From assembly GCF_000758165.1 (NCBI RefSeq), contig NZ_JNUP01000064.1, positions 186,001 through 250,000 of the forward strand: a stretch of 64,000 bases of DNA, written 5' to 3'. Positions 46,071-62,874 of the stretch are shown piece by piece. This stretch comes from Spirochaeta lutea. GTDB taxonomy: Bacteria > Spirochaetota > Spirochaetia > DSM-27196 > Salinispiraceae. Both the position numbers and the translations under genes were made by a program. Position 1 is the stretch's first letter, and the number at the start of each line of letters is the position of its first letter. The notes beneath the pieces were generated by a model. The model did not search any database. It was not told where the DNA came from and was given only the letters and a program-made list of their open reading frames with translations.

Positions 46071-48371
46071 TTAGTTGCCGTATCCTGATCCGGTGTTGTA
46101 CTCCAGCCCGTATCCGATTTCATAGGTCGGGTCTTGGGTGTCTCCGGGGATGTCTTCCAGCTGGTTTCGTACCGATTCCATGGATGAGGGGATTTCCACG
46201 GGCAGGGTGCCCTTCGGCGCCGCCCCTTCCTGCCAGAATACAACATCCAGGAAGGCCCGGTCGGTGGCTGCGAAGTCGATGAATACACCGTCCACATCTT
46301 TCAGGAAGGGTTCGATGATTCCCGGGCGGGATGCTGTCATACCAAGGATGATTTTCAGATCCGGGTTCGCCTGTTTGGCCTGAATAGCACGAGTGATGGC
46401 GGCGAGACTCTCTTGGTAACCGAGGTAGGACCGGTATCCCTGGCCGACCATGCCGGCACCGGATCCGTTACTCCAGTCACCGAACTGCCACCCCCCGAAA
46501 TCCACGTAGTTCGGGATGGTTTCATCGGTGTACTGGTCTGAATCGTGGTCGAAGACCCGGGTCGGACTCTGGAAGTCCAGGGGGACGCCGCCTTGGGTTC
46601 CGAAGTAGGTGCCGCCCCGGGCATTGATTCGGATTATGGCTATGTCTGCTTCGGCAATGCTATCGACAAAGTTGGCTTCCAGGTACTGGCTGTCCGAGGA
46701 GAAGGCGTAGGTCTTCTCCTGGCCGCTGTCGGCGTCGGGGAAGGGGCTGTCAAAGTATACATCCACCCGGTTGTTTCCGTTGGTGTCTACAGCACTGACG
46801 TAATCGGGGTTTGTGGCGGTTATGGGCAGAAGCTGGATGTAGGGGGCTACCTCCGGGTTTTCTGTCAGAACCATCGCCTTTCTCATGGCGTCAAATCCCT
46901 TCGCCATCCGGTCTTGCATAGCCTTCCCCTCGGGGTTCCAGAACTCCCGAGCTTCCGCCAGGTTTACATAGGGGTTTTCGAAGAGCCCCAGCTTGAACTG
47001 CAGTTCCAGGGTGCGGATTGCTGCTGCGTTGATGGTTTCATCGGTAATGAGCCCGTCTTCGTAGGCGGTGAGCCACCAGCCGTCGTTGTCTCCGGGCATA
47101 TTCTGATAGGTGCCGGCGTTTAACATTTTTGCCAGACGCTCGGGTTCGCTTAGGTCTTCAACTCCCCAGGCTGCATTGGTAGCGATACTATGGTCGGATA
47201 CCACGGTTCCGTCGAATCCCAATTGATTCTTAAGAAGCTCGGTGGCAATCTGATATTCGTAGGCGGAACCTACTGCCTCGTAGCCGGTCTGATCGGGATC
47301 TATGATGCTGTAGGCCATCATGATGGCTCCCACCTCGGCCTTTTCGATGGCGGCTTCAAAGGGTTTCAGGTGTTCTTCCAGGTTTCCTCCGGGAAAGGCC
47401 GCATACCGGCCGGCCCGGGTATGGCTGTCCATTCCTTCCTGGTTTGAACCGGCTCCAGGAAAATGCTTGAGTACGGTGATGATTCCGTCCACCCCAACAC
47501 TGTTTTTGTCCAGGTCGTATCCCTGCATGGATTTAACCAGTACTTCGATGTGCCGGGCTACGATGTCGCCGTCGGCATGGAGGAGGTGCTGGATTCGGGC
47601 CCAGCGGGGTTCGGTGGCCAGGTCTGCTTGGGGGCCCAGGAGCACGTGGTAACCGCTCATCCGTAGTTCATCCCGGACTATTTCTCCGAACCGCTTGGTC
47701 AGGCCAAGGTCGTTGATGGCCCCGAGACCCATCATGAAGGGCCAGGTTGAATACTGGTAGTCGGGGATTTCGTTTCCGAACCAGTAGTCATGGGTTGGGT
47801 CCTGGGAAAGGATCATGGGGATTCCCCAGTTCAGACGTTCAACGTAGCCTTGGACATTGTTAAAATAGGTCAGCACATCCAGGGGCGCCACCGGGGCCTG
47901 CAGCGCATAGCGGTTCCCCGCGGCAAGCTGAGCTGCCGGTGTACCTTCCTCCGTCTCTCCTCCGGCACCTAAGCCCGGTATACCGAATCCTTCATCTTCG
48001 CCGCCTAAATTCAGGCTGCGCCAGTTGAGCAGGGCGAGTTTTTCTTCCACCGCCATGCGTTCCACCAGATCGCCTGCCCGGTCCCGGGGGGTTAGGCGCC
48101 AATCCTCATAGGGCTCGAGTTTTCCGTTTCCGTTGGAATCCTTAAACTCCAGACCGCGGCTGGTGATGACGCCTTTGTCATTACCCGCTGACAGGATGGG
48201 TTCGGTCCCCTGGGAAGGAATGCCTGGGTTCGCTTCCAGGTATTCTTGATAGGTGGTAATCTCGGGCTGCTCGCTGTAGATGCTCACCTCGAAGGGGTCC
48301 CCTCCTCCGCAGGCGGCCAGAGCAAGGGCTATAAGCACCGCGCTTACGGCGATAAACGCTTTTTTTATCAT
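46071..48371 (-). CDS. GH3-A: family-3 glycoside hydrolase lipoprotein with EF-hand-like loop
   Basis: A 766-residue lipoprotein (lipobox LALAACGG, Cys21) predicted to cleave beta-glucosides or similar in the envelope. After a linker, [12 protein letters not shown] (78-89) matches a calcium-binding EF-hand loop in spacing. The GH3 barrel follows with [48 protein letters not shown] and the nucleophile Asp393 in [11 protein letters not shown]. In the second domain the usual SxEGxDR acid/base motif is not visible; the equivalent region reads [14 protein letters not shown]. Closely related to GH3-E at the right edge. Divergent from the LysR gene. Confidence 0.88.
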
Positions 48372-48529: not shown

Positions 48530-48667
48530 AGTGTTAGGAAAAGGGTAGCACGGTAATTTTTCTCCAGGCTATCAACGATCGGTTACAGGGCGGCAACGAA
48601 ATGTGATGTCTACCGGGTGGGGAACCGGTTTCTTTTTGGGATAAAACCGGTAATACTACTAGGTAGA

Positions 48668-49546
48668 ATGAATACCCGGGCCCTGAAGTGTTTTATCGAA
48701 GTATATGAAAAGAAGAGCGTTGCCGCCGCAGCTCGGGAGATCTACATCTCTCCCCAGGGCCTGAGCAAAATCATTAAACAGTTAGAGTATGACTTGGAGA
48801 CAGAGTTGTTTTTCCGCGGCGCCCAGGGTATGGAGGCGACCGAAGCCGGGGAGCTGTTGTATGCCCGGGCACGCCATATCTGCTATCTTCTGGACGATAT
48901 AAAGAAAGAAATAAGCATAATCGGGGGAAGCAAGGGCACCCTTAACGTCGTGGTTACCTATTCCACCTCGGCAATCGTTCCCTACGAAATGCTTCACCGG
49001 TTTTCCAACCTGAACCCGAACCTCCAGATTAAAATTGACGAGTATCCCGACGAGTTTGCCGTGAACGACCTCTTCCAAGACGAGGCCGACGTGGGGATAG
49101 TCCTGGGCCACGAGGGTATACCCAATTGCAGTTATGAATTGCTCGTTCCCGGTCGGACGGTAATTATCGTCGGACCCGATCACCCCTTGGCGTCCCGGAA
49201 TGAAATCTCCTTGGACGATTTGAAGAACCATCAATTGGTGGTAAAGACCATGGAGCCCGGGCGAGACAGCCATCTGGTAGAGGAGTGTAAATCCCGGGGC
49301 TTCGATCCCGGGGTACTCTACTCCACTGGGAATCTGACGGCCCTCCGCAACAGCTGTATCCGCACCGGAGTGGCCGCTGAATCGGTTGACTTTGTGGAGC
49401 AGGCCTTCCCCTCTGACCAGGTCCGGGTCCTTCCCCTAAAAGAGCGGATACCCCAGAACATCTATGTGATCAGCCGGGACCGTGATATTCAAAACCGGGC
49501 CGTAACCCTATTTCAAACCTTTCTGAGAGAGAATTTTAGATCATGA
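48668..49546 (+). CDS. LysR-family transcriptional regulator
   Basis: A 292-residue regulator from ATG 48668 (AGGTAG upstream). The winged helix-turn-helix is MNTRALKCFIEVYEKKSVAA and AREIYISPQGLSKIIKQLE (about 1-45), followed by the periplasmic-binding-like effector domain (about 90-290). Its stop overlaps the GH3-B start as ATGA, so it is co-translated with GH3-B rather than divergent from its target, which is unusual for LysR. It probably controls this island, responding to a sugar or a metabolite; the effector is not evident. Confidence 0.92.
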   Translation: MNTRALKCFIEVYEKKSVAAAAREIYISPQGLSKIIKQLEYDLETELFFRGAQGMEATEAGELLYARARHICYLLDDIKKEISIIGGSKGTLNVVVTYSTSAIVPYEMLHRFSNLNPNLQIKIDEYPDEFAVNDLFQDEADVGIVLGHEGIPNCSYELLVPGRTVIIVGPDHPLASRNEISLDDLKNHQLVVKTMEPGRDSHLVEECKSRGFDPGVLYSTGNLTALRNSCIRTGVAAESVDFVEQAFPSDQVRVLPLKERIPQNIYVISRDRDIQNRAVTLFQTFLRENFRS

Positions 49547-51978
49547 GCACTCCTAAGCATTCCGACATACTGAGCCGCATGACCCTGGAAGAAAAGGTTT
49601 CTCTGCTTTCCGGCAGAGATTTCTGGCAGACCAAAGAGATTCCCCGGTTGGATATTCCCAGCATTTACCTGGCCGACGGTCCCCATGGAATCCGCCGTCA
49701 GGCCGTGGACGCCCAGCAGATCGGGTTGAACATCGGAATTCCGGCGACCTGTTTTCCCACCGAGGCCACGGTGGCCAATAGCTGGAATGTGGAATTAGGA
49801 GAGAAGGTGGGCTCGTTTTTGGGCAACGAGGCCGTGGCCCAGCGGGTGAATGTCCTGTTAGGCCCGGGGATCAACATGAAACGGAATCCTCTGGGGGGTC
49901 GGAATTTTGAGTACTTTAGTGAAGACCCGTATCTGGCGGGAAAGATGGCTGCAGCCTATATCCGGGGAATCCAGTCCCAGGGAATCGCCGCCTGCGTGAA
50001 ACACTTCGCCGCGTCCAACCAGGAGTGGCGTGTTATGACCATAGATGCGGTCATAGATGAGCGCACCCTGCGGGAAATCTACCTCACTGCCTTCGAGATT
50101 GCGGTTACCGAGGGCAGGGTTAAGTCTCTCATGTCCGCCTACAACCGGGTGAACGGTACCTACGTTAACGAACACCCCTATTTTATGAACAAGGTTCTCC
50201 GGGGCGAATGGAATTACCAAGGCTGTGTAATTACAAACTGGGGGGGCAGTAACGACCGGGTGGAGGGTCTGAAGGCCGGCAACGAACTGGAAATGCCCGG
50301 AAGCGAGGGCGAAACAGACCGGCAGATAGTACGGGCCCTTGAACAGGGGATCATCACCGAGGACCTCATTGACGAAAATGTTGACCGCCTGCTGGATCTG
50401 ATTCTATCCACCAGTGCGGTGCTCCAGTATCCCAAAATCGATTTTAACATTCCCCAGCACCACCGGGTGAGCCAGCGGGTGGCTGAGGAATCCATTGTTC
50501 TGCTTAAAAACCACGGCGGCATTCTGCCTCTGAGCCACACCACGAAGGTGGCCGTTATCGGGGATTTTGCCCGGAATGCCCGCTATCAAGGTGCCGGATC
50601 ATCCCTGGTGAATCCTACGGTGCTGGACAATACCATGGACTGCTTTGATGAATCAGGTATTTCCAGTATCGGTTTTGAACGGGGATTCGAACGCTACGGT
50701 AAAGAATCGTCCAGGCTGATCGACCGGGCCTGCGCCCTGGCTCGGAAGGCTGATACGGTGCTGCTCTACCTCGGCCTCGACGAGGATAGCGAGAGTCAGG
50801 GGGTGGACCGGAGCACTATGCGCCTACCGGATAACCAGATTCAGCTCCTGGAGGCATTAAGCCGGGTAAACCCGAACATCGTGGTGATACTTTCCTGCGG
50901 CTGTGCGGTAGAGATGCCCTGGATCGATACGGTCCGGGGATTGCTCCATGCCTATCTTGGCGGCCAGGCCGGGGCCCGGGCGATCTTGCGGGTTATCTCC
51001 GGGGATGTGAATCCCTCGGGGAAACTGGCCGAGAGCCTACCCCGGCGGTACGAGGACACCCCGGCCTCCCGGTACTATCCCGGAAAGGATCTAACCGTGG
51101 AGTACCGGGAGGGTCCCTTCATCGGCTACCGCTACTACGATACCGCCGGGGTAGAGCCTCTGTTTCCCTTCGGTTTCGGCCTGAGCTACACCCGCTTCGG
51201 ATACTCGGATATTTCCGTGGACCGTGAGGGGGTGGAGTTTTTCCTGGAGAATCAGGGCCCGGTTGCGGGGATGGAGGTCGCCCAACTCTATGTTGGTAAA
51301 TCCGAGAGCAGGATTTACCGGCCCCGGAAGGAGCTGAAAGGCTTTGTGAAGGTGCTGATTAATCCGGGGCAACGTAAACGCATTCGAATCCCCTTCGATG
51401 ATAAAACCTTCCGGTTCTTTAATCCCCGGGCAGGGGAATGGCAGATTGAGGGGGGCAGCTATGAGATTATGGTGGGCTCATCCAGCCGGGATATTCATTT
51501 AACGGCGAGTTTGGAGGTGGAGGGTACCGCCGGGCCCCTGCCGGGGATGTGGAGCCCTGAAAGTCTACCCTCCTATTACACCGGGGGAGTGGGGGATGTT
51601 TCCGAACAGGAATTTTCCCGGCTTCTGGGTCGCCCGGTTCCCCAGGGCTACCGTGACCGGTCTAAACCCCTGGGCTACAACGATGCCCTGGCGGAAACAC
51701 GGTATGCCCAGGGCTGGGCTGCCAGGCTCTTTTTCTGGTCCATGGAGGCCTTGTTGGGTATGTTGCACCGTACCGGCCGGCGAAAACAGGCAAATCTCAT
51801 CATGATGTCGGTTTACCACCTGCCCTTCAGGGGAATAGCCCGGCTGACCGGCGGCCGGGTTTCCATGGAGATGGTGGACGGCCTGCTGCTGATCAGTAAC
51901 GGCCGGTTTCTTGCCGGTGCCGGAAAGGTGGTGGCGGGCTGGTACCGGAAGCGACGCAGAAACCTGGTTCGCCGGTAA
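49543..51978 (+). CDS. GH3-B: family-3 glycoside hydrolase homologue with both catalytic residues substituted
   Basis: An 811-residue two-domain GH3 protein with fibronectin-like third domain, no signal peptide, so probably cytoplasmic. It is full length and well conserved (ADGPHGIRR, GPGINMKRNPLGGRNFEYFS, KHFAASNQEW), but the nucleophile position reads ITNWGGSND, with Asn232 (codon AAC) where GH3-C has Asp243. The acid/base motif reads SESQGVDR, with Gln419 (CAG) where GH3-C has Glu429. Both are amide replacements, so hydrolysis should be lost while sugar binding may remain. The C-terminal extension (about 720-811) is amphipathic and ends WYRKRRRNLVRR, fitting the inner face of the membrane. 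Translationally coupled to the LysR gene. Confidence 0.88.
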   Translation: MSTPKHSDILSRMTLEEKVSLLSGRDFWQTKEIPRLDIPSIYLADGPHGIRRQAVDAQQIGLNIGIPATCFPTEATVANSWNVELGEKVGSFLGNEAVAQRVNVLLGPGINMKRNPLGGRNFEYFSEDPYLAGKMAAAYIRGIQSQGIAACVKHFAASNQEWRVMTIDAVIDERTLREIYLTAFEIAVTEGRVKSLMSAYNRVNGTYVNEHPYFMNKVLRGEWNYQGCVITNWGGSNDRVEGLKAGNELEMPGSEGETDRQIVRALEQGIITEDLIDENVDRLLDLILSTSAVLQYPKIDFNIPQHHRVSQRVAEESIVLLKNHGGILPLSHTTKVAVIGDFARNARYQGAGSSLVNPTVLDNTMDCFDESGISSIGFERGFERYGKESSRLIDRACALARKADTVLLYLGLDEDSESQGVDRSTMRLPDNQIQLLEALSRVNPNIVVILSCGCAVEMPWIDTVRGLLHAYLGGQAGARAILRVISGDVNPSGKLAESLPRRYEDTPASRYYPGKDLTVEYREGPFIGYRYYDTAGVEPLFPFGFGLSYTRFGYSDISVDREGVEFFLENQGPVAGMEVAQLYVGKSESRIYRPRKELKGFVKVLINPGQRKRIRIPFDDKTFRFFNPRAGEWQIEGGSYEIMVGSSSRDIHLTASLEVEGTAGPLPGMWSPESLPSYYTGGVGDVSEQEFSRLLGRPVPQGYRDRSKPLGYNDALAETRYAQGWAARLFFWSMEALLGMLHRTGRRKQANLIMMSVYHLPFRGIARLTGGRVSMEMVDGLLLISNGRFLAGAGKVVAGWYRKRRRNLVRR

Positions 51979-52411: not shown

Positions 52412-54874
52412 ATGGATTATAAGCATGTAATAAAACAGATGACCCTGGAAGAGAAGGTGTCTCTGCTTTCCGGAAAAAACTTCTGGGAGAGTCAAGAGTT
52501 GGAGCGCCTTAATGTGCCGGGGATGTTTCTGGCTGACGGTCCTCACGGAATCCGGCGCCAGGCTGCGGCAGCCGATCATCTGGGGTTGAACGAGAGCATA
52601 CCCGCTACCTGTTATCCCACGGCGGCTACGGTGGCCAACAGCTGGGATGTGGAATTAGCCCAGGAGGTCGGAACCCATTTGGGACGGGAGGCGGCCAGTC
52701 AGCAGGTAAACGTCCTTTTAGGGCCGGGAATGAATATCAAGCGGAATCCCCTATGCGGCCGGAATTTTGAATACTTCAGCGAGGATCCATACCTGACGGG
52801 AAAGATGGCGGCGGCCTACGTCCGGGGAATCCAGGCCGGGGGAATCGGGGCCCATGTGAGCGGCGCTCCGTCCACGAGCCGGGGCATTGCAGCGTGTATT
52901 AAACACTTCGCGGTGAACAACCAAGAAACCCGGCGGATGTCCATCGATGTGGTGGTGGATGAACGGACCCTCAGGGAAATCTACCTGACCGGTTTTGAGA
53001 TCGCCGTTCGGGAGGGAAGGCCCCGGGTGGTGATGTCCTCCTACAACAAGGTCAACGGTGAATATACCAACGAGAATATGCATCTGCTCCGGGAGATTCT
53101 TCGGGAGGAATGGGGATTCCAAGGCTGCGTGGTAACCGATTGGGGGGGCGGAAACGAGCGTGTCCGGGGGCTGCTGGCCGGAAACGAGCTGGAGATGCCC
53201 GGAACCGGTGGAGAGTCCAACCGGGAGGTGCTTGAGGCTGTCCGCCGGGGAGAACTTGAGGAGGCGGTGGTCGACGAGGCCCTGGAACGGTTGCTGGCCC
53301 TGGCTGATGAGACCTCCCAAGCCCTGGTGTGGAAGAACCAGAAAATCCCCCGGGATCACCATCAAACAGCCTGTAAGGCCGCGGAGGAATCCATCGTTCT
53401 GTTAAAGAACCAGGATACCATCCTGCCCCTGGATACCTCGAAGACCCTTGCAGTGATCGGCGATTTCGCCCAAACACCGCGCTACCAGGGTGCCGGCTCC
53501 TCCCGGGTCAATCCCACCCAGCTGGAATCCGCCCTGGACCGGTTGGAGTCCTCGGAGTTGAGGATTATCGGCTACGAGCCGGGGTTCCACCGGTTTGGCA
53601 AGAAGAGCAGCGATCTGGTGGAACGGGCCTGCGGCCTGGCAGCCCAGGCTGATACGGTTCTCCTGTACCTGGGACTGGATGAGGTCAGCGAGGCAGAGGG
53701 GGTGGACCGGACGAGTCTGGCCCTGCCGGAGAACCAGCTGGACCTGCTGGAAGCCCTGGTAGGGGTGCATTCCCGCATCGTGGTGATACTATCCTGCGGA
53801 TCTGTGATCGAAATGCCCTGGATCGACGGGGTTTCTGCAGTGGTTCACGGCTATCTGGGCGGCCAGGCCGGTGCCCAGGCCATGGTCCGGGTACTCTTGG
53901 GGCTTGTGAATCCCTCGGGTAAGCTGGCGGAGACCTATCCCAAGACCTACCTGGATGTTCCTTCCGGGGCGAATTTCCCCGGGGGACAGGCTACCGTGGA
54001 GTATCGGGAAGGGCCGTATGTGGGCTACCGCTATTTTGACCGTCAGCCCGGGGGTATTCAATTTCCCTTCGGGTTCGGCCTGAGTTATACCAGCTTCGAA
54101 TACCATGACCTCCGGGTAGACAGCCGAGGCGCGCGGTTCACCCTGAGGAACACCGGGGCTCTGGCGGGAAAAGAGGTGGTACAGCTTTACATTCAGGGGC
54201 CGGGTCAAGCAGTGTACCGGCCGGAAAAGGAACTGAAGGGTTTTACGAAGGTGCATCTGGAGCCCGGAGAAAGCCGGGAGGTACACCTGGCCTTCGATGC
54301 CTACAGCTTCCGATTTTTTAATCTGAAAAAGAATGCCTGGGATGTGGAAAGCGGGATGTATACTATCTTTATCGGGGCATCCAGCCGGGATATCCGGCTG
54401 CAGGCCTCCCTGTCCGTGCAGGGTTCGGATTGCGGGAACCTCTACGACCTCCGGAGCCTGGAGCCCTACTTTACCGGCGAGGTGGAGAACATCGAAGAAC
54501 CAACCTTCGCCGCTCTGGTCGGCCGGCCCCTTCCGGAGACCCATTGGGGGAACAGGATCCCCATGGGGTACAACGATCCCCTCGCCCGGACCAAGTATGC
54601 CCGGGGCTGGTTCGGCCGCCTTACCCATAGCCTGATAATCTTTACCCATTGGCTGCTCTGGAAGATCGGTCAGCGGGACACCGCTAACCTCATCATGATG
54701 TCCTTTTATAACATGCCCTTCCGGGGGATCGCTAAAATGATGGGCGGCATGGTGTCCCGGCGCATGGCCGAGGGGTTTCTCATGATGGTTAACGGTCATT
54801 TTTTTAAGGGATTTACACGTCTGATTACAAAAGAAAAACAAGAAAAGGAAGTTGAGTATGAATACCGCACATAG
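52412..54874 (+). CDS. GH3-C: family-3 beta-glycosidase with intact catalytic residues
   Basis: An 820-residue paralogue of GH3-B with the same three domains and extension. Nucleophile Asp243 is in VVTDWGGGNE and acid/base Glu429 in SEAEGVDRTSL, so it should be an active beta-glucosidase-like enzyme. It has GPGMNIKRNPLCGRNFEYFS and KHFAVNNQETRR, plus an insert of about 11 residues (GAHVSGAPSTSRG, about 150-162) missing from GH3-B. No signal peptide; the C-terminal helices (THSLIIFTHWLLWKIG, ANLIMMSFYNMPFRGIAKMM) suggest cytoplasmic membrane association. The 3' end overlaps the GtrA gene by 17 bases. Its own leader holds element copy C. Confidence 0.92.
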   Translation: MDYKHVIKQMTLEEKVSLLSGKNFWESQELERLNVPGMFLADGPHGIRRQAAAADHLGLNESIPATCYPTAATVANSWDVELAQEVGTHLGREAASQQVNVLLGPGMNIKRNPLCGRNFEYFSEDPYLTGKMAAAYVRGIQAGGIGAHVSGAPSTSRGIAACIKHFAVNNQETRRMSIDVVVDERTLREIYLTGFEIAVREGRPRVVMSSYNKVNGEYTNENMHLLREILREEWGFQGCVVTDWGGGNERVRGLLAGNELEMPGTGGESNREVLEAVRRGELEEAVVDEALERLLALADETSQALVWKNQKIPRDHHQTACKAAEESIVLLKNQDTILPLDTSKTLAVIGDFAQTPRYQGAGSSRVNPTQLESALDRLESSELRIIGYEPGFHRFGKKSSDLVERACGLAAQADTVLLYLGLDEVSEAEGVDRTSLALPENQLDLLEALVGVHSRIVVILSCGSVIEMPWIDGVSAVVHGYLGGQAGAQAMVRVLLGLVNPSGKLAETYPKTYLDVPSGANFPGGQATVEYREGPYVGYRYFDRQPGGIQFPFGFGLSYTSFEYHDLRVDSRGARFTLRNTGALAGKEVVQLYIQGPGQAVYRPEKELKGFTKVHLEPGESREVHLAFDAYSFRFFNLKKNAWDVESGMYTIFIGASSRDIRLQASLSVQGSDCGNLYDLRSLEPYFTGEVENIEEPTFAALVGRPLPETHWGNRIPMGYNDPLARTKYARGWFGRLTHSLIIFTHWLLWKIGQRDTANLIMMSFYNMPFRGIAKMMGGMVSRRMAEGFLMMVNGHFFKGFTRLITKEKQEKEVEYEYRT

Positions 54875-55559
54875 CCCCGAGGAAGCGAAATTAAAACCAA
54901 AACGGGATATTCCCGTAATCAGCAATCTGGCGGCCTGGTGGAATCGGTTTGTGGAAAAACACCCCACCGTAGCCCAATTTGTGGTGTTTTTTATCCTGAG
55001 CAACGGGGTAACCCTGCTGCAAATGGTTCTGATGCCCGTGCTCAAGGAGGTGTTCGAACAGACTGCCCTGATCCACCGGGATTTTATCATCTGGCCGGTG
55101 GGACAGAACCTGGACGGATCTACCTACTATATTTTTAATTATCCCGGGGGAACCATCGCCAGCGGCGGCGGCGGGGGCTTAGCCTATTTCTTGGCCGTTC
55201 AAATCACCATAGGAATTGCCCAGGTAATCAACTTCTTTGCCCAGCGGAATATAACCTTCAAATCCAACGGTAACCCTTGGTGGTCCGCTCTGTGGTACCT
55301 CATTGCGTACATCATTATTACCATCGGCGCGGCGGCGGCCCAGGGGCTCTACAAGGCGCCGATTTACACCCTGCTGATGGATACCCTGGGGATGGGTGCC
55401 GCCGGGGAGGCCACAGCGGACGCCATTACGATGATTATTAATGCAACCATCTCCTTCTGGGTGTTTTTCCCGATATTCAAACTCATTTTTCGGAGGACTC
55501 CCGAAGAGCCCGGCGTATCACCCGAGCACGCCGGCGGTCAGGAAGGAGGCGGGGAATGA
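54858..55559 (+). CDS. GtrA-family membrane protein (putative lipid-linked sugar flippase)
   Basis: A 233-residue membrane protein. The ATG at 54858 is preceded by AAGGAAG inside the GH3-C end; a TTG two codons earlier is less likely. Four helices follow the GtrA pattern: AQFVVFFILSNGVTLLQMVL, then VINFFAQRNITFKSNGNPWW, where Asn-Arg-x-x-Thr-Phe is the family motif. GtrA proteins are thought to flip polyprenyl-phosphate-linked sugars. An insert between the first two helices (about 75-110) with GGTIASGGGGGLAY is unusual. Overlaps GH3-C and the GT2 gene on either side, so it is firmly part of that operon. Confidence 0.9.
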   Translation: MNTAHSPEEAKLKPKRDIPVISNLAAWWNRFVEKHPTVAQFVVFFILSNGVTLLQMVLMPVLKEVFEQTALIHRDFIIWPVGQNLDGSTYYIFNYPGGTIASGGGGGLAYFLAVQITIGIAQVINFFAQRNITFKSNGNPWWSALWYLIAYIIITIGAAAAQGLYKAPIYTLLMDTLGMGAAGEATADAITMIINATISFWVFFPIFKLIFRRTPEEPGVSPEHAGGQEGGGE

Positions 55560-56590
55560 CCAGGACGGAGGGGTTCTGCTTGACGGTGGTTGTGCCCTGT
55601 TATAACGCAGAATCCTATATGGCCAGGGCTGTGGATTCTGTTTTGAGTCCCGGTTTCGGGGATGTGGAGCTCATCCTGGTGAATGACGGCTCCCGGGATC
55701 GGACTGAGGCTCTGGCGGAAGGGTATGCCCGGGCGAATCCCGGCAGGGTACGGGCGGTCCATCAGGAGAACCGCGGTCACGGCGGGGCGGTGAATACAGG
55801 AATTGCCCTGGCCCGGGGTGCCTACCTGAAGGTCTTGGACAGCGATGATTGGTTTGATCTCCCGGCCTTCCGGCGGTTGGTGGAAACCCTGCGGATGCTG
55901 CTGTTCCGGGAAACCCCCGTGGACGCCCTGGTGAGCAACTATGTCTATGAAAAGCAGGGAGCCCGGCGGAAAAAAACCATGCATTACCGCAGGATTCTGT
56001 CTCGAAACAAGATTCTGACCTGGGACCAGGTGGGGCGGTTTCCAGCAGGGAAGTACCTGATGATGCACTCCCTCACTTACCGTACCCAGGTTCTTCGGGA
56101 GTCGGGTCTGAGGCTGCCGGAACATACCTACTATGTGGACAATCTGTTCGTCTGTGTGCCCATGCGCCGGGTACACTCCCTCTATTACCTGGATGAGGAT
56201 CTGTACCGCTACTACATCGGACGGGATGACCAGTCGGTGAATGAATCGGTGATGATCCGCCGGATCGACCAGCAGCTGCGGGTTAATACCCTGGTAATTG
56301 AGAACTTCCTGAGGGATCCCACGGGACGCAGGCGGCTGGAAGAGTACCTGTTTCATCATCTGGAGATTGTTACGGCAATATCCAGTGTTCTTCTCATCAA
56401 GGCGGGAACCCCGGAGCATACAGAGCTGAAGGATACCCTCTGGCAGGGTATCGCCGCCATGGACCCGGGATTGTATAAGCGTCTGCATCGCCGGGGGTTA
56501 GGGGTTCTGGTTAACCTTCCCGGCCTGGCTGGCAAACTAGCAGCAGCTACTGCCTACGGTATGACCCGTCTGCTTTTCGGCTTCAATTAA
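55556..56590 (+). CDS. family-2 glycosyltransferase
   Basis: A 344-residue inverting glycosyltransferase. The GT-A core shows LTVVVPCYNAESYMARAVDS (about 9-28), ELILVNDGSRDRT, ENRGHGGAVNTGIALARGAY and the metal-binding KVLDSDDWFD (about 97-106). The C-terminal part is helical with a weakly hydrophobic end (LAAATAYGMTRLLFGF) that may touch the membrane; there are no full transmembrane helices as in GtrB. It is coupled to the GtrA gene by a four-base overlap and probably supplies the glycosyl transfer whose product is flipped. Donor and acceptor are unknown. Confidence 0.9.
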   Translation: MTRTEGFCLTVVVPCYNAESYMARAVDSVLSPGFGDVELILVNDGSRDRTEALAEGYARANPGRVRAVHQENRGHGGAVNTGIALARGAYLKVLDSDDWFDLPAFRRLVETLRMLLFRETPVDALVSNYVYEKQGARRKKTMHYRRILSRNKILTWDQVGRFPAGKYLMMHSLTYRTQVLRESGLRLPEHTYYVDNLFVCVPMRRVHSLYYLDEDLYRYYIGRDDQSVNESVMIRRIDQQLRVNTLVIENFLRDPTGRRRLEEYLFHHLEIVTAISSVLLIKAGTPEHTELKDTLWQGIAAMDPGLYKRLHRRGLGVLVNLPGLAGKLAAATAYGMTRLLFGFN

Positions 56591-56677: not shown

Positions 56678-59578
56678 ATGAGTATGACAAAAAAAAGCAG
56701 GAGACGGTGGATTATCGGACTATCCATCCTCGGTGTGTTTACCATCGCAGTAACCGTGGCACTGAATATATTCAGCGCCCACGCGGATATCTACCTGGGC
56801 CGCGGCAAGGCCGTGGTCACCCAGGCAGAAGGCACCGAAAATCTCCCCAGCATCTATTATGAAATGGATTACCCGTCCTATGAGGCCCTGAAAGAGGCCT
56901 CCGACGCCCTGGTTCAGGAAATCGAGGCCGAGGGAATGGTTCTTCTCAAGAATAACGGCGCCCTGCCCCTGGCAGAAACCGGCAGCCGGGTTACCCTCCT
57001 AGGCCGCAGCGCTGCTGATCCGGTTTACGGGGGATCCGGATCCGGCTCGGTGGATGTCTCCCTGGCGGTGGATCTGAGAACCGCCCTGGAGGACCGGGGT
57101 TTCACCGTAAACCCCGTGGCGTACCGGGAGATTGAGGAATTTGCCTCCTACGAGATGCGGCGAAACCAGGTGGGAGAAAGCATCCGGGCCTACAAGAACC
57201 CCCGGGGCCACATCGCCATGGACCGCCCCAGCCAATCCACCTACGACATCGGTGAAATGCCGGCTGACCAGTATTCCCCCCAGGCCCTGGAGAGTTTCTC
57301 CGATTACGGAGATGCAGCGGTGATCGTTCTCGGCCGACCCGGAGGGGAAGGCGGAGACCTGACCCAGGATATGAAGGGATTCGACGAAAATTACCAGCCC
57401 GGGCAGCATCAGTTGGAATTGAACCAGGATGAGAAAGATTTGATCACCCTGGCAAAACAGAATTTTGACCGGGTTGTGGTGGTGATCAACTCCAGCGCCG
57501 CCATGGAGCTGGGAATTCTGGAGGATGATCCCGGAGTGGATGCCATCCTTTGGGCGGGATCGCCGGGGCAAAGCGGATTTTATGCAGTAGCTGATGCCCT
57601 CCGGGGGGCGGTGAACCCCTCCGGCCGGACCGTGGACATTTATGCCAGGGATTTTACCGCCGATCCGACCTTCAACAATTTCGGGCACTTTCAGTATGAG
57701 AATATTCACGGTGGAAACGCATCCGGGGAAGGGTTCTTTGTCCAGTACCGGGAAGGAATTTACTACGGCTACCGCTACTATGAAACCGCTGCCGCTGAGG
57801 GATTTATCGACTATGACCGAGCCGTGGTGTATCCTTTTGGATACGGTCTGAGTTACACCGACTTTGCATGGCAGATCACCGGATCGCGGATGGGCGATAC
57901 CGAAGGGTTCATTGAGGTGGACGTTCAGGTAACCAATACAGGGGACCGTTTTGCCGGGAAGGATGTGGTGCAGCTCTATGTATCGCCCCCCTATTACCCG
58001 GGTGGCATTGAAAAACCCGAGGTAGTACTGGCGGACTTTGCGAAAACCGGGCTGCTTGCCCCTGGAGACTCCGAGGTGGTAACCCTATCGGTCCGAGTGG
58101 AGGATCTTGCATCCTACGATTACGAGGATGAACGGGCCTATGTTCTGGAAGAGGGCGACTACGGGATCCGGATTCAAGACAACTCCCATGACCTAAAAGA
58201 GGGTATCCAAGAGCTTAGCTACCGGGTAGACCGGACAGTGGTATACAACGGAAATAATCACCGGACCTCGGATCAACAGGAGGTTACCAACCAGTTTGAT
58301 GACGTATCCGCCCTCTTTTCCGACAGCCCTGAGAAGGGCAGGGTCGTTAACCTGAGCCGGGCGGATTTTGCCGGTACCTTCCCCCAGGCGCCCTCGGGAG
58401 ACGATTTTGAGGCAAGTGAGCAGGTTATTCAGGCCTTCCAAGCCTATGTAGCCTCGGAACATGCGGATCCCGATGATGAAATGCCCACCATCAAAGCAGA
58501 AAACGGACTCTACCTCATTGATATGCGGGGTGTGGACTACGATGATGCCCTCTGGGAGGTGTTCCTAGACCAGATTGACCCTGCGGACATTGCACGGATT
58601 GTAATCAGCTCCGCCTACACCACCGCACCCATCGAGGATCTGGGTAAACCCATGACGGTGGATCTGGACGGTCCTGCGGGAATCTCCGCATTCATGGGGG
58701 ATATCCACGGATCGGCCTTTCCCTCGGCGGTGGTCATTGCATCCACCTACAATACCGATCTTGCCTCCGAGATGGGCCGAATGGTCGGTAACGAAGGGCT
58801 GGCATACGGGGTGAACGGCTGGTATGCCCCGGCGGTAAACATCCACCGATCTCCCTTCGCGGGCCGAAACTTTGAGTACTACTCCGAGGATCCGGTACTA
58901 TCCGGCCGGATGGCCACCGGGGTTGTGGAGGGTGCTGCCGATAAGGGTATGTACACCTTCTTGAAGCACTTTGCCTTGAACGACCAAGAGACCAACCGGG
59001 TGAACAACGGAGTCGCCGTCTGGGCCAACGAACAGGCCATCCGAGAGATATACCTGAAGCCCTTTGAGATGGTGGTAAAGAATGCCGCTACAACCCTGCC
59101 GTACCTGGATGCGGAATCGGGAGAGCTCAGGGAAAAACCCGCAAAGGCCTCCACCGCATTCATGAGTTCCTTCAACCGGATCGGCGGGGTCTGGGCAGGG
59201 GGATCAGAACCCCTTCTTCAGACCGTCCTGCGGGATGAATGGGGATTCGAAGGTACGGTCATCAGCGACTTCAATCTGTACAGCCACATGTACGTCAACC
59301 AGGGTCTGGCGGCCGGGACCGACATCAACATAACCTTCGACTCCATGAAGTCCATCGAAGACAGCTCCAGCCCAACAGCAGTCCAGCATCTCCGGCGCAG
59401 CGCCCACCGGCTGTTCTACACCGTGGCAAACAGCAGCGCCATGAACGGCTTTGTGTCGGGTACCACCATCCACTACACCATGGCACCCTGGCGCATCTGG
59501 CTCATCGTGGCCGATGTTCTTATCGGATTGTTCATTCTTTTCGGGGTGATTCGACTGATCCTAAAAAGCAGATCCTAA
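56678..59578 (+). CDS. GH3-D: domain-swapped GH3 enzyme with a membrane segment at each end
   Basis: A 966-residue protein in which the usual GH3 order is reversed. Residues about 11-31 form a membrane anchor (RRRWIIGLSILGVFTIAVTV). The GH3 C-terminal domain comes first (about 80-330; EGMVLLKNNGALPL, acid/base Glu224 in RPGGEGGDL). A fibronectin-like domain follows (about 400-510), then a linker and the barrel (about 600-920; DLDGPAGIS, HRSPFAGRNFEYYSEDPVLS, LKHFALNDQETNR, nucleophile Asp864 in VISDFNLYS). A second helix lies at about 940-962 (WLIVADVLIGLFILFGVIRL). Both carboxylates are present. With a Lys/Arg-rich start the catalytic part should face outward. Reversed GH3s are known, for example from Ruminococcus. 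Confidence 0.9.
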   Translation: MSMTKKSRRRWIIGLSILGVFTIAVTVALNIFSAHADIYLGRGKAVVTQAEGTENLPSIYYEMDYPSYEALKEASDALVQEIEAEGMVLLKNNGALPLAETGSRVTLLGRSAADPVYGGSGSGSVDVSLAVDLRTALEDRGFTVNPVAYREIEEFASYEMRRNQVGESIRAYKNPRGHIAMDRPSQSTYDIGEMPADQYSPQALESFSDYGDAAVIVLGRPGGEGGDLTQDMKGFDENYQPGQHQLELNQDEKDLITLAKQNFDRVVVVINSSAAMELGILEDDPGVDAILWAGSPGQSGFYAVADALRGAVNPSGRTVDIYARDFTADPTFNNFGHFQYENIHGGNASGEGFFVQYREGIYYGYRYYETAAAEGFIDYDRAVVYPFGYGLSYTDFAWQITGSRMGDTEGFIEVDVQVTNTGDRFAGKDVVQLYVSPPYYPGGIEKPEVVLADFAKTGLLAPGDSEVVTLSVRVEDLASYDYEDERAYVLEEGDYGIRIQDNSHDLKEGIQELSYRVDRTVVYNGNNHRTSDQQEVTNQFDDVSALFSDSPEKGRVVNLSRADFAGTFPQAPSGDDFEASEQVIQAFQAYVASEHADPDDEMPTIKAENGLYLIDMRGVDYDDALWEVFLDQIDPADIARIVISSAYTTAPIEDLGKPMTVDLDGPAGISAFMGDIHGSAFPSAVVIASTYNTDLASEMGRMVGNEGLAYGVNGWYAPAVNIHRSPFAGRNFEYYSEDPVLSGRMATGVVEGAADKGMYTFLKHFALNDQETNRVNNGVAVWANEQAIREIYLKPFEMVVKNAATTLPYLDAESGELREKPAKASTAFMSSFNRIGGVWAGGSEPLLQTVLRDEWGFEGTVISDFNLYSHMYVNQGLAAGTDINITFDSMKSIEDSSSPTAVQHLRRSAHRLFYTVANSSAMNGFVSGTTIHYTMAPWRIWLIVADVLIGLFILFGVIRLILKSRS

Positions 59579-59590
59579 GGGAGGACCGAC

Positions 59591-60928
59591 ATGATCCAAG
59601 ATGTACAACTACCAACCCGGACCGGAACGATTCTCACGCCTCTTTCGGTCCTGAGCCTTGCTGCTGCGGCCCTGCTTCTTGCTGGCTGCGGCAGTACTGG
59701 GAACTCGAACAGCACCGACGGCGCCGACAATGCTTCTGGGCGTAGTCCGGGCAGCGGAGCATCCGCCGAAACCGGCAATACCGGAGACCGGAAATACTCC
59801 GTAACATTGGACACCGTGCTCCACGGCAGCCTGCAAACCGAACCGGAAATTACCCACGGCCAGACCCTGCCCGAGGGGACCCGGATAACCCTGAACGCCC
59901 AGGCGGACCCGGGGTACGCCCTGGACTCGGTCTACTACTCCGTAGCCGGTCCCTGGGGGCCCATGTATTTCGAATCCACCGAGGCTACCATGGAGGTAAC
60001 CCTCACCCAGGATATTAGTCTGGGGGCATCCTTCCTGCCCGAAAAGGACGTGGCGGGATTTTCGGAGCGGCAGGACATCCTGTACGCCCAACCCGGGGTC
60101 AAACCCCTGAAGTACGATGTGTTTATACCCGAGGGAGCCCAAGACTTACCCCTGGTCATCATCACCCACGGGGGCGGCTGGTCCAGCAATGACGAGAACA
60201 TCATGCGCGGCATGGCCCGGGAAATGGTCCGTACGGGCCGTTACGTGGTGGCCAGCATCGATTACCGCTGGGTCGGGACCCTGGACGGCGATGCCCGGGA
60301 AAACACCGTGGCTGATCTGATCGAAGATGTATACGGAGCGGTTCTGCATATCCAGGAGCATGCCCGGGATTACGGTGCGGATCCTGAACGTATCGCCCTT
60401 ACAGGTGACAGCGCCGGGGGGCATCTTACCGCTGCCATGGCCACCATGGTGGAGCGAATCGGTTCAGGGGGATTTGAATCCGGGAACTACCGGTACGAGC
60501 CCTCCTACCTGCCCAGGGGTATGAGCCTGGAGCAGGCCCGGCAATCCCTGGCACAGGCCATCCGGGTGGTCGCGCCGAGCTACGGGGTATTCGGAGGAAC
60601 GCATCTGGCACAGTTCACCCGGGGCGGTACAGGCTCCGAAGAGCTTGCGGCCATATCTCCGGTGGCTCAGATACCCCCGGCGGAGCAACGCCGGCTGCCC
60701 CACTACCTGATCCGCGGCGGATCGGATCCCCTGATCACCCCGGACATGGTGGATGAGTACGCCGAGGCCCTGGAGGCAGCGGGGCATCCGGTTAAGCGGG
60801 TGGAGGTCCCGGGGGCCGGCCACGCCTTCTTCGACTGGAAACCCGATGCTCAAACCCGGCGGACCTTCCAGAGGTTCGGCGTCCCCTATATCCGGGATAT
60901 GCTGGAGTTTTTCGACCAGTATTTGTAG
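59591..60928 (+). CDS. alpha/beta-hydrolase esterase lipoprotein
   Basis: A 445-residue exported lipoprotein (LAAAALLLAGCG, Cys about 33) followed by a Ser/Gly-rich linker and a small beta repeat of the InlB/Listeria-Bacteroides kind (about 65-145; PEGTRITLNAQADPGYALDS). The catalytic domain resembles BD-FAE/carboxylesterases: oxyanion THGGGWSSNDEN, nucleophile Ser in LTGDSAGGHLT, acid in IRGGSDPLITPDM and His in PGAGHAFFDW. It would remove acyl or acetyl groups from a glycan, complementing GH3-D, whose gene ends 12 bases upstream. GGGAGG precedes the ATG. A strong terminator follows. Confidence 0.9.
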   Translation: MIQDVQLPTRTGTILTPLSVLSLAAAALLLAGCGSTGNSNSTDGADNASGRSPGSGASAETGNTGDRKYSVTLDTVLHGSLQTEPEITHGQTLPEGTRITLNAQADPGYALDSVYYSVAGPWGPMYFESTEATMEVTLTQDISLGASFLPEKDVAGFSERQDILYAQPGVKPLKYDVFIPEGAQDLPLVIITHGGGWSSNDENIMRGMAREMVRTGRYVVASIDYRWVGTLDGDARENTVADLIEDVYGAVLHIQEHARDYGADPERIALTGDSAGGHLTAAMATMVERIGSGGFESGNYRYEPSYLPRGMSLEQARQSLAQAIRVVAPSYGVFGGTHLAQFTRGGTGSEELAAISPVAQIPPAEQRRLPHYLIRGGSDPLITPDMVDEYAEALEAAGHPVKRVEVPGAGHAFFDWKPDAQTRRTFQRFGVPYIRDMLEFFDQYL

Positions 60929-61026: not shown

Positions 61027-61506
61027 ATGAATATACGCAAAACTATTGCCCTGGTAGCCCATGATAACCGCAAGTCCGATCTTGTCGAATGGGTGCAGTA
61101 CAACTGGAAGAGGCTGCAAGGTCATAGGCTGGTCTGCACCGGGACCACCGGCAAGCTGGTGTCCCAGGCCTTCGCGGCGAAGTCCCAGGCTACCGGGGAT
61201 GTTATTCCCGAGATTCTTCGGATGAAGAGCGGCCCCCTGGGAGGGGATCAGCAGCTTGGGGCGATGATCGCCGAGGGTAAGGTGGATATTATGGTGTTTC
61301 TCTGGGACCCCATGGAGCCCCAGCCTCACGACGTCGATGTCCGGGCCCTGGAACGAATCGCCGTACTCTACAATATTCCCTACGCTTCCAACCGGGCCAC
61401 TGCTGATTTTTTAATCTCCTCGGAACTGTTCCTGGCGGATTACCACCCGGTGCGGAAGGATTACGAGGAATACATTCACCGCTCGATTCAACATCTGGGA
61501 CGGTAG
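61027..61506 (+). CDS. mgsA: methylglyoxal synthase
   Basis: Converts dihydroxyacetone phosphate to methylglyoxal and phosphate, a bypass used when sugar phosphates build up. The 159-residue protein begins MNIRKTIALVAHDNRKSDLV and carries the catalytic-Asp motif RMKSGPLGGDQQLGAMIAEG (about 66-85), TGTTGKLV for phosphate binding and FLWDPMEPQPHDVDVRAL. Length is normal. AAAAGGAAG precedes the ATG. Its place in a sugar-hydrolase island suits overflow control when hydrolysis releases much sugar; that link is inference. Confidence 0.95.
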   Translation: MNIRKTIALVAHDNRKSDLVEWVQYNWKRLQGHRLVCTGTTGKLVSQAFAAKSQATGDVIPEILRMKSGPLGGDQQLGAMIAEGKVDIMVFLWDPMEPQPHDVDVRALERIAVLYNIPYASNRATADFLISSELFLADYHPVRKDYEEYIHRSIQHLGR

Positions 61507-61653: not shown

Positions 61654-61764
61654 TAGTACTGCGCGCAAAGGGTTGTAGATTGACCCTGGGACGAGGCTGC
61701 CCCTGGATCAGGACCGCTGGCAACACCGCTGTATCCGGCGTAGGTTACAACCGTTTGCGCACTA
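61654..61764. repeat. interspersed palindromic element, copy D (111 bp)
   Basis: The left end is TAGTACTGCGCGCAAAGGG, slightly expanded, and the right end is TTACAACCGTTTGCGCACTA. The inner motif TATCCGGCGTAGGTTACA is clear. The last three bases (61762-61764) are the stop codon of glf read on the minus strand. Confidence 0.82.
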
Positions 61765-62874
61765 CCGAATTCTATCGGTAAGGGCCAGGGCGTTTGCAAA
61801 GGCCTGGTCCATATTGAAGTATTTGTACTCCGCGAGTCTTCCCACAAAGAAGACTCCTTTTTTTTGCTCCGATGCAGCCAGGCTCCGGTACTGTTCAAAG
61901 AGCTGGAGGTTCCCGGGGCTGAATACCGGGTAGTAGGGTTCGCCCTGGCTGCGGGGGAACTCCTTAATGATGGTGGTTTTCGGGGATTCTTGCCCCGTGG
62001 CGAGCTTGGGTTCGGTTATCCGGGTCCAGGGTACCTCCGGGGAGGGATAGTTGATGGTGGCTGCCTCTTGGAGCCGGGGGGTGTCCAGGGTTTCGTGGAG
62101 GAATTCCAGGGATCGGTATTGAAGGTCGCCGATGTTTCGGTCGTGGAAGTACCGGTCGATCCGGCCGGTAAAAAAGATCCGGGAGGGGTTCCGGGCCGGG
62201 GAGGAGGAGGGGCGGGAAGCCAGCTGACGGTAATCCCGGTTCAGCTCCAGGGAAATCAGGGGGTGATCCAGCATGGTTTGGAAGAGGGCGGTGTATCCCC
62301 GGGTCGGCATGGCTTGGTAGGTATCGGTGAAATACCGGTCTTCCCGGGTCGTGCGGACGGGAATCCGATTCATCACCTCGGGAGCCAGCTCCGCCGGTTC
62401 CATCTCCCACTGCTTTTTCGTATAGTTCCTGAACATTTTTTCATACAGGACCCGGCCGACCCGGGCGAGGGCTGCCTGCTCGGAGTTTTGCGGGTGGGTA
62501 ATGGGTTCGGTGTTTTCCCCTAGCCAGGTGCGCATCTGGTCCTCGGTGCGGATGTCCGTGCCGAAGAGCCGGTTGACTGTGGTCGGATTCACCGGAACCG
62601 GAACCAGCCGGCCGTCCACCAGGCTGAGTACCCGGTGCTCATAGGGCCGCCAGGAGGAAAAACCCTGGACATACTCCCATACCCGGGAGTCGTTGGTGTG
62701 GAAGAAATGGGGTCCGTACTTCGGTACCAGGATGCCGGCGTCATCGTAATAGTCATAACAGTTTCCGCCGATATGATCCCGTTTATCAATAACCAGCACC
62801 TCTTCCCCGAGCCGCTCTGCCAGCTCCCGGGCAATGGTGCAACCGCTGATTCCCGCCCCTACTACCAGATTCAT
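61762..62874 (-). CDS. glf: UDP-galactopyranose mutase
   Basis: Interconverts UDP-galactopyranose and UDP-galactofuranose, the donor for galactofuranose-containing glycans. A 370-residue flavoprotein with the FAD-binding NLVVGAGISGCTIARELAER at the N-terminus, DKRDHIGGNCYDYYDD and KYGPHFFHTNDSRVWEYV. The C-terminal part has GVFFVGRLAEYKYFNMDQAF. Length is typical. The stop codon TAG is the first three bases of element copy D. Convergent with mgsA and divergent from GH3-E. It suggests the local glycan contains galactofuranose. Confidence 0.95.
   Translation of the reverse strand: MNLVVGAGISGCTIARELAERLGEEVLVIDKRDHIGGNCYDYYDDAGILVPKYGPHFFHTNDSRVWEYVQGFSSWRPYEHRVLSLVDGRLVPVPVNPTTVNRLFGTDIRTEDQMRTWLGENTEPITHPQNSEQAALARVGRVLYEKMFRNYTKKQWEMEPAELAPEVMNRIPVRTTREDRYFTDTYQAMPTRGYTALFQTMLDHPLISLELNRDYRQLASRPSSSPARNPSRIFFTGRIDRYFHDRNIGDLQYRSLEFLHETLDTPRLQEAATINYPSPEVPWTRITEPKLATGQESPKTTIIKEFPRSQGEPYYPVFSPGNLQLFEQYRSLAASEQKKGVFFVGRLAEYKYFNMDQAFANALALTDRIR

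Follow-up and report, generated by a model that had tools for sequence, protein, structure and literature searches.

The window, a 64,000-nucleotide stretch of a Spirochaeta lutea contig, encodes at 56678–59578 (plus strand) a permuted GH3 (P0001) with a membrane helix at each end. The permuted GH3 topology itself is already known (GlyA1, PDB codes 5k6l/5k6m; the Paenibacillus enzyme, 5wug). What appears to be new here is a dual-anchored clade within the permuted GH3s, with a remodelled pocket and a conserved locus. On balance, we favor a reading in which the protein is a membrane-stapled, retaining GH3 exo-glycosidase that stands on a two-helix foot, acts on a lipid-linked or membrane-proximal glycan and is of Bacillota origin.

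Domain order, fold and catalytic residues

The gene is a single open reading frame of 966 codons that runs from an ATG to a stop. Pfam assigns an (alpha/beta)6-sandwich (GH3_C, residues 87–393; 56936–57856; E 1.3e-30), an Fn3-like domain (residues 429–503; 57962–58186; E 5.6e-15) and the (alpha/beta)8 barrel that forms the GH3 N-terminal domain (residues 653–885; 58634–59332; E 2.2e-30), all on the plus strand. A long arm (residues 504–640; 58187–58597, plus strand), as in the permuted GlyA1 fold, connects the FnIII domain to the barrel. From these Pfam positions it follows that the GH3 domain order is reversed. This agrees with the sequence-only reading, which had placed E224 ahead of D864, and the domain search did not recover the motifs in the standard order. 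The barrel and GH3_C scored 106.6 and 107.4 bits, respectively, against Pfam cut-offs of 27 and 31, so the protein belongs to the GH3 family.

The top PDB sequence match is Thermotoga neapolitana Bgl3B (TnBgl3B; 2x40–2x42), which has the canonical order; its alignment with P0001 (2x40/2x42) consists of two swapped blocks, with query residues 643–883 on residues 37–259 and query residues 77–507 on residues 326–706. The predicted nucleophile D864 (59267–59269, plus strand; motif VISDFN) aligns with the nucleophile position of TnBgl3B (Ala in 2x42), and the predicted acid/base E224 (57347–57349, plus strand; motif GGEGGD) falls in the acid/base loop. Catalytic residues and most −1 subsite residues are common to the two proteins. 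Conservation was assessed in a family set obtained by scanning GTDB genomes with five aligned permuted proteins as the query. The scan loci, of which the 80 closest were listed, come from Bacillota, Actinomycetota and Spirochaetota; adding the window copy, three orthologues from spirochaetes and a copy on a Niallia plasmid brought the set to 84 usable proteins. Among these 84, which include the closest relatives listed, D864 is kept in all and E224 in 83 (with one gap), and R724, K763 and H764 are invariant. P0001 is confirmed as a permuted GH3 with intact predicted catalytic residues and, with the Asp on the barrel and the Glu on the sandwich as in GH3, is predicted from its family to be a retaining enzyme.

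The AlphaFold2 model, computed with 59 sequences, has a mean pLDDT of 94.1 and a pTM of 0.93. A Foldseek search returned permuted GH3s at the top (GlyA1, 5k6m, E 4.9e-61, followed by the Paenibacillus barengoltzii beta-glucosidase, 5wvp, E 1.4e-59, as the second-best group), with canonical GH3s ranked below; the superposition is loose, with an rmsd of about 6 Å and a TM-score of 0.67 by query. The rumen enzyme GlyA1 shares the sandwich-FnIII-barrel order, the long FnIII-barrel arm and the catalytic residues, but is only 26–27% identical by structural alignment and has another C-terminal domain. The P. barengoltzii enzyme (5wug/5wvp) is likewise permuted and 26–27% identical; dual anchoring characterizes the clade of the window enzyme. 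No solved relative with more than 30% identity to the anchored clade was found. The paper on GlyA1 named the permuted topology and proposed that it arose in Bacillota and spread by horizontal transfer (PMC5104943); a word search of that paper returned neither "transmembrane" nor "signal peptide".

Membrane helices and topology

The hydrophobic helix proposed earlier for each terminus was recovered both in 19-residue Kyte-Doolittle maxima (2.34 for the N-terminal and 2.76 for the C-terminal region) and as helices in the AlphaFold2 model (residues 3–31 and 33–40 at the N-terminus, 937–965 at the C-terminus). Based on hydropathy, the family and AlphaFold2, TM1 covers approximately residues 11–32 (56708–56773, plus strand) and is preceded by KKSRRR, with the N-terminus inside, and TM2 covers approximately residues 938–961 (59489–59560, plus strand) and is followed by LKSRS, also inside. 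Among the closest relatives listed, the N-terminal helix is present in 80 of 84 proteins and the C-terminal helix in 82 of 84, a frequency that refers to the closest-relative clade represented by the 80 closest loci. The exceptions are truncated open reading frames, the Niallia taxi protein, which lacks TM2, and a single weak case. In a separate sample, both helices are also found in all three permuted open reading frames from IMG/VR contigs (29–36% identical); neither helix is present in the soluble permuted GH3s of spirochaetes. Because it is kept in about 80 relatives, the dual-helix architecture is not a product of chance.

A K/R-rich flank follows TM2 in 81 of 82 proteins. These positive charges place the C-terminus inside and therefore, in a two-helix protein, the N-terminus as well; the charge of the N-terminal flank taken alone is less clear (46 versus 34). 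Sequence analysis thus establishes a predicted N-in/C-in topology, with the catalytic body facing the periplasm or the cell exterior. Each helix contains a polar position surrounded mostly by hydrophobic residues: at T26 in TM1 (56753–56755, plus strand), 95% of the family have a polar residue (Asn in 61 sequences), and at D946 in TM2 (59513–59515, plus strand) 93% do (Asp in 47 sequences). An interfacial Trp before TM2 (W938; 59489–59491, plus strand) is present in all 82 sequences with that column. One protein without the TM2 polar residue also lacks that of TM1; several proteins keep one of the two, and cases of joint loss are few. TM1 and TM2 may pack against each other via residues 26 and 946.

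We also considered an ordinary secreted GH3 in which TM1 is a cleaved signal peptide and TM2 a simple tail anchor, and regard it as quite improbable. A possible signal peptidase site does follow TM1 in P0001 (between SAHA and D), and the Niallia taxi protein lacks the C-terminal helix. However, only 14 of 80 proteins have A-x-A close to where TM1 ends, the motif is broken (AHM) in the closest orthologue, the possible site in P0001 falls within model helix 33–40, and the hydrophobic core of TM1 is long, with a conserved polar position that is unexpected of a cleaved signal peptide. Moreover, the Niallia protein has Gly at position 26, and so is without the TM1 polar residue as well as TM2. The signal-peptide-secreted enzyme was rejected because the cleavage motif is not conserved in the family and the polar residue of TM1 is, and TM1 is best regarded as a retained anchor.

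Double anchoring had originally been taken to pin opposite ends of the catalytic body to the membrane. The two helices stand, but this geometry probably does not. In the model of the canonical sibling GH3 encoded in this locus, nine residues (306–314) separate the last barrel helix (284–305) from the first sandwich helix (315–327). Since the permutation cut this short barrel-sandwich linker, both helices should leave the body from neighboring points, which disfavors a two-sided clamp. The two ends are probably adjacent in the fold, with the helices forming a single two-helix foot. Adjacent new chain ends would suit such a foot and suggest a reason for the permutation.

Clade, sugar pocket and origin

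A tree was calculated from re-ordered barrel and sandwich domains of 39 anchored, 13 soluble permuted and 30 canonical GH3 rows. The anchored rows cluster together (SH-aLRT 100, stem 0.5), separately from both the soluble permuted and the canonical GH3s, and the earlier suggestion of a distinct subfamily therefore holds. A branch (90) has all canonical GH3s to one side, the anchored group is set apart by its long stem, and none of the soluble permuted GH3s in the tree, which does not include GlyA1, groups with the anchored clade. A single permutation, after which the anchors were gained, would fit this arrangement.

The anchored group also differs in its sugar pocket. The Arg that follows DGPxG (R64 in TnBgl3B), present in 40 of the 43 other rows, is mostly replaced by Asn or Ser, and the Trp that follows the nucleophile (W243 in TnBgl3B), present in all 43, mostly by Phe or Tyr. 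We take R64 and W243 of TnBgl3B to be sugar-binding residues. In addition, an Arg is replaced by Gln (Q786), which makes up a signature with S670 and F865, and G714, Y716, W782, Y379, Y439 and H504 are specific to the anchored group. The natural reading of this remodelled pocket is a changed substrate.

Within the phylogeny, the window copy and those of two other genomes (G315 and G428) form a clade (96/87) nested in Bacillota and sister to Fusibacter (100/98), and the copy of a further genome (G408) belongs with a second Spirochaetaceae copy to another lineage. No full-length copy was found in the 60 relatives searched, which included same-family and same-order genomes, and a search of the phylum returned four copies in 393 genomes, the window included. 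For this limited taxon sample, the data support acquisition of the gene by Spirochaeta lutea from Bacillota. The transfer from Firmicutes put forward by the sequence-only reading is upheld to that extent; an Fn3-like domain is common in GH3s and does not by itself point to transfer.

Conserved locus and proposed function

The locus in the window contains a BglX-type GH3 with a lipobox-like N-terminus (ALAAC; 46071–48371, minus strand), which recurs in loci elsewhere, and a LysR regulator (48617–49546, plus strand), in whose place most loci of other phyla have LytTR and a histidine kinase. Also on the plus strand are two canonical-order GH3s without signal peptides (49543–51978 and 52412–54874, the latter with an AlphaFold2 pLDDT of 87.8), a GtrA-like protein with four TM segments (54852–55559) and a GT2 glycosyltransferase that lacks a TM helix (55556–56590). 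The anchored GH3 is followed by a lipoprotein-like alpha/beta hydrolase (esterase; 59591–60928, plus strand), an MGS-like domain protein (61027–61506, plus strand) and UDP-galactopyranose mutase (UGM; 61762–62874, minus strand). The GtrA-like protein is the only PF04138 match in the genome, which is 96% complete, and scored 24.5 bits as a protein and 26.6 bits in the whole-genome search, where its neighbors shared the frame, against a cut-off of 26.1. UGM is likewise the only PF03275 match.

The two canonical GH3s end in an all-helical tail of about 110 residues (NLIMMSxYxMPFRGIAKMxGG...NGHFFKG), which is conserved in the 33 aligned locus homologues and may bind the inner membrane face. A homologue of the MGS-like protein (246 bits) is encoded in the G428 locus. 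In the closest spirochaete locus, that of G315, the GtrA gene (L067:10269–10921) is split by a frameshift, either natural or an assembly error.

Gene content was counted in the 47 loci that have 6.5 kb or more of flanking sequence on each side, with representatives checked by Pfam. Canonical GH3s are found in 38 of these, GtrA-like proteins in 37, LytTR in 35, histidine kinases in 32, GT2 in 28, UGM in 19, BglX-type GH3s in 16 and LysR in 10. Eight loci contain none of canonical GH3, GtrA, GT2 and UGM, and some of these have tandem anchored GH3s only. Two or three anchored GH3s in tandem, without GtrA, GT2 or UGM, are seen in four loci (L121, L128, L140 and L144), which suggests a second locus type. 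On a contig from a viral collection (L168:1230–13363), LytTR-like and sensor-kinase-like genes precede a tandem pair of anchored permuted GH3s, and a multi-TM protein of roughly 150 residues comes after each of the two. At L167:168–8778, an anchored permuted GH3 directly follows apparent phage tail and lysin genes and may lie at a prophage edge.

PF04138 was detected in the GtrA-like locus proteins, most of those checked having four TM segments. The GT2 proteins, including that of the window, are not GtrB-like: five of the six checked have no TM segment and the sixth has one, and their PDB matches are chondroitin synthase and GalT1. No multi-TM GT-C transferase was recognized among the recurring open reading frame clusters of the loci. 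Window-type loci thus resemble the GtrABX and CsbB-GtcA-YfhO systems in having a GtrA-family flippase with GT2 beside the gene, but differ in their TM-less, non-GtrB-like GT2, the lack of a conserved GT-C, the two GH3 types and the UGM found in part of the loci. A GtrABX-type system was rejected because the GT2 is not GtrB-like and no GT-C was recognized. As a precedent, a GtrA-GtrB pair can be required to make a polymer even where no further transferase is known (PMC7117936).

The anchored enzyme is most likely an extracytoplasmic retaining glycosidase, perhaps a transglycosidase, whose substrate would be a lipid-linked or membrane-proximal glycan; it probably targets a sugar of the envelope, not a nutrient. 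The lipid-linked substrate proposed at the outset is plausible and is backed by the linkage to GtrA, GT2 and UGM. A glycan would be made inside the cell by the co-encoded GT2, with UDP-Galf supplied by UGM in part of the loci, and flipped by GtrA. The permuted GH3, its active site held near the outer leaflet by the two-helix foot, would then trim or transfer the sugar outside, and the cytosolic GH3s would act on the inner side. Several observations count against this reading: the GT2 is unlike GtrB/DPMS-type polyprenyl-phosphate sugar synthases, so that a monosaccharide-phospho-lipid donor is at most putative, eight of the 47 loci lack all four of these partner types, UGM is found in less than half of the loci, and the Foldseek superposition is loose.

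GH3s are generally classed as digestive. We consider it rather unlikely that P0001 is a membrane-tethered, nutrient-scavenging beta-glycosidase that trims plant or host oligosaccharides before uptake, with GtrA, GT2 and UGM nearby for another purpose. Such a role would fit the exported-looking BglX-type GH3 and the esterase of the locus, the LysR or LytTR regulators alongside, and the published association of permuted GH3s with digestive-tract bacteria and plant polymers (PMC5104943). On the other hand, transporter families are not among the core genes of the locus (an ABC ATPase-like cluster occurs in 15 loci), the GtrA linkage extends across three phyla and the single GtrA of the genome lies here, the partner GH3s have no signal peptides, and the anchored group departs from other GH3s at conserved pocket residues.

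It is very unlikely that the enzyme recycles undecaprenyl phosphate by hydrolyzing the sugar off lipid carriers once they are flipped. The linkage to GtrA and a body held outside on TM feet would be consistent with it, and UshA, which frees undecaprenyl phosphate from linked sugars (PMC11898649), provides a functional precedent. However, UshA resembles alpha-beta hydrolases and is unrelated to GH3, and UGM and the cytosolic GH3s would be superfluous.

The favored glycosidase reading has a more specific variant, in which the anchored GH3 is an outer-leaflet transglycosylase that replaces GT-C in a GtrA-type pathway and decorates an envelope glycan from a lipid-linked sugar donor. We consider this variant unlikely; if true, it would represent a transglycosylase system common to Bacillota, Actinomycetota and Spirochaetota. 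No published description of the dual-anchored GH3 branch or of its locus was found in the open-access literature. This large branch is an indication of an envelope-glycan pathway yet to be described, in bacteria such as Streptococcus, Enterococcus, Bifidobacterium, Cellulomonas and gut clostridia.
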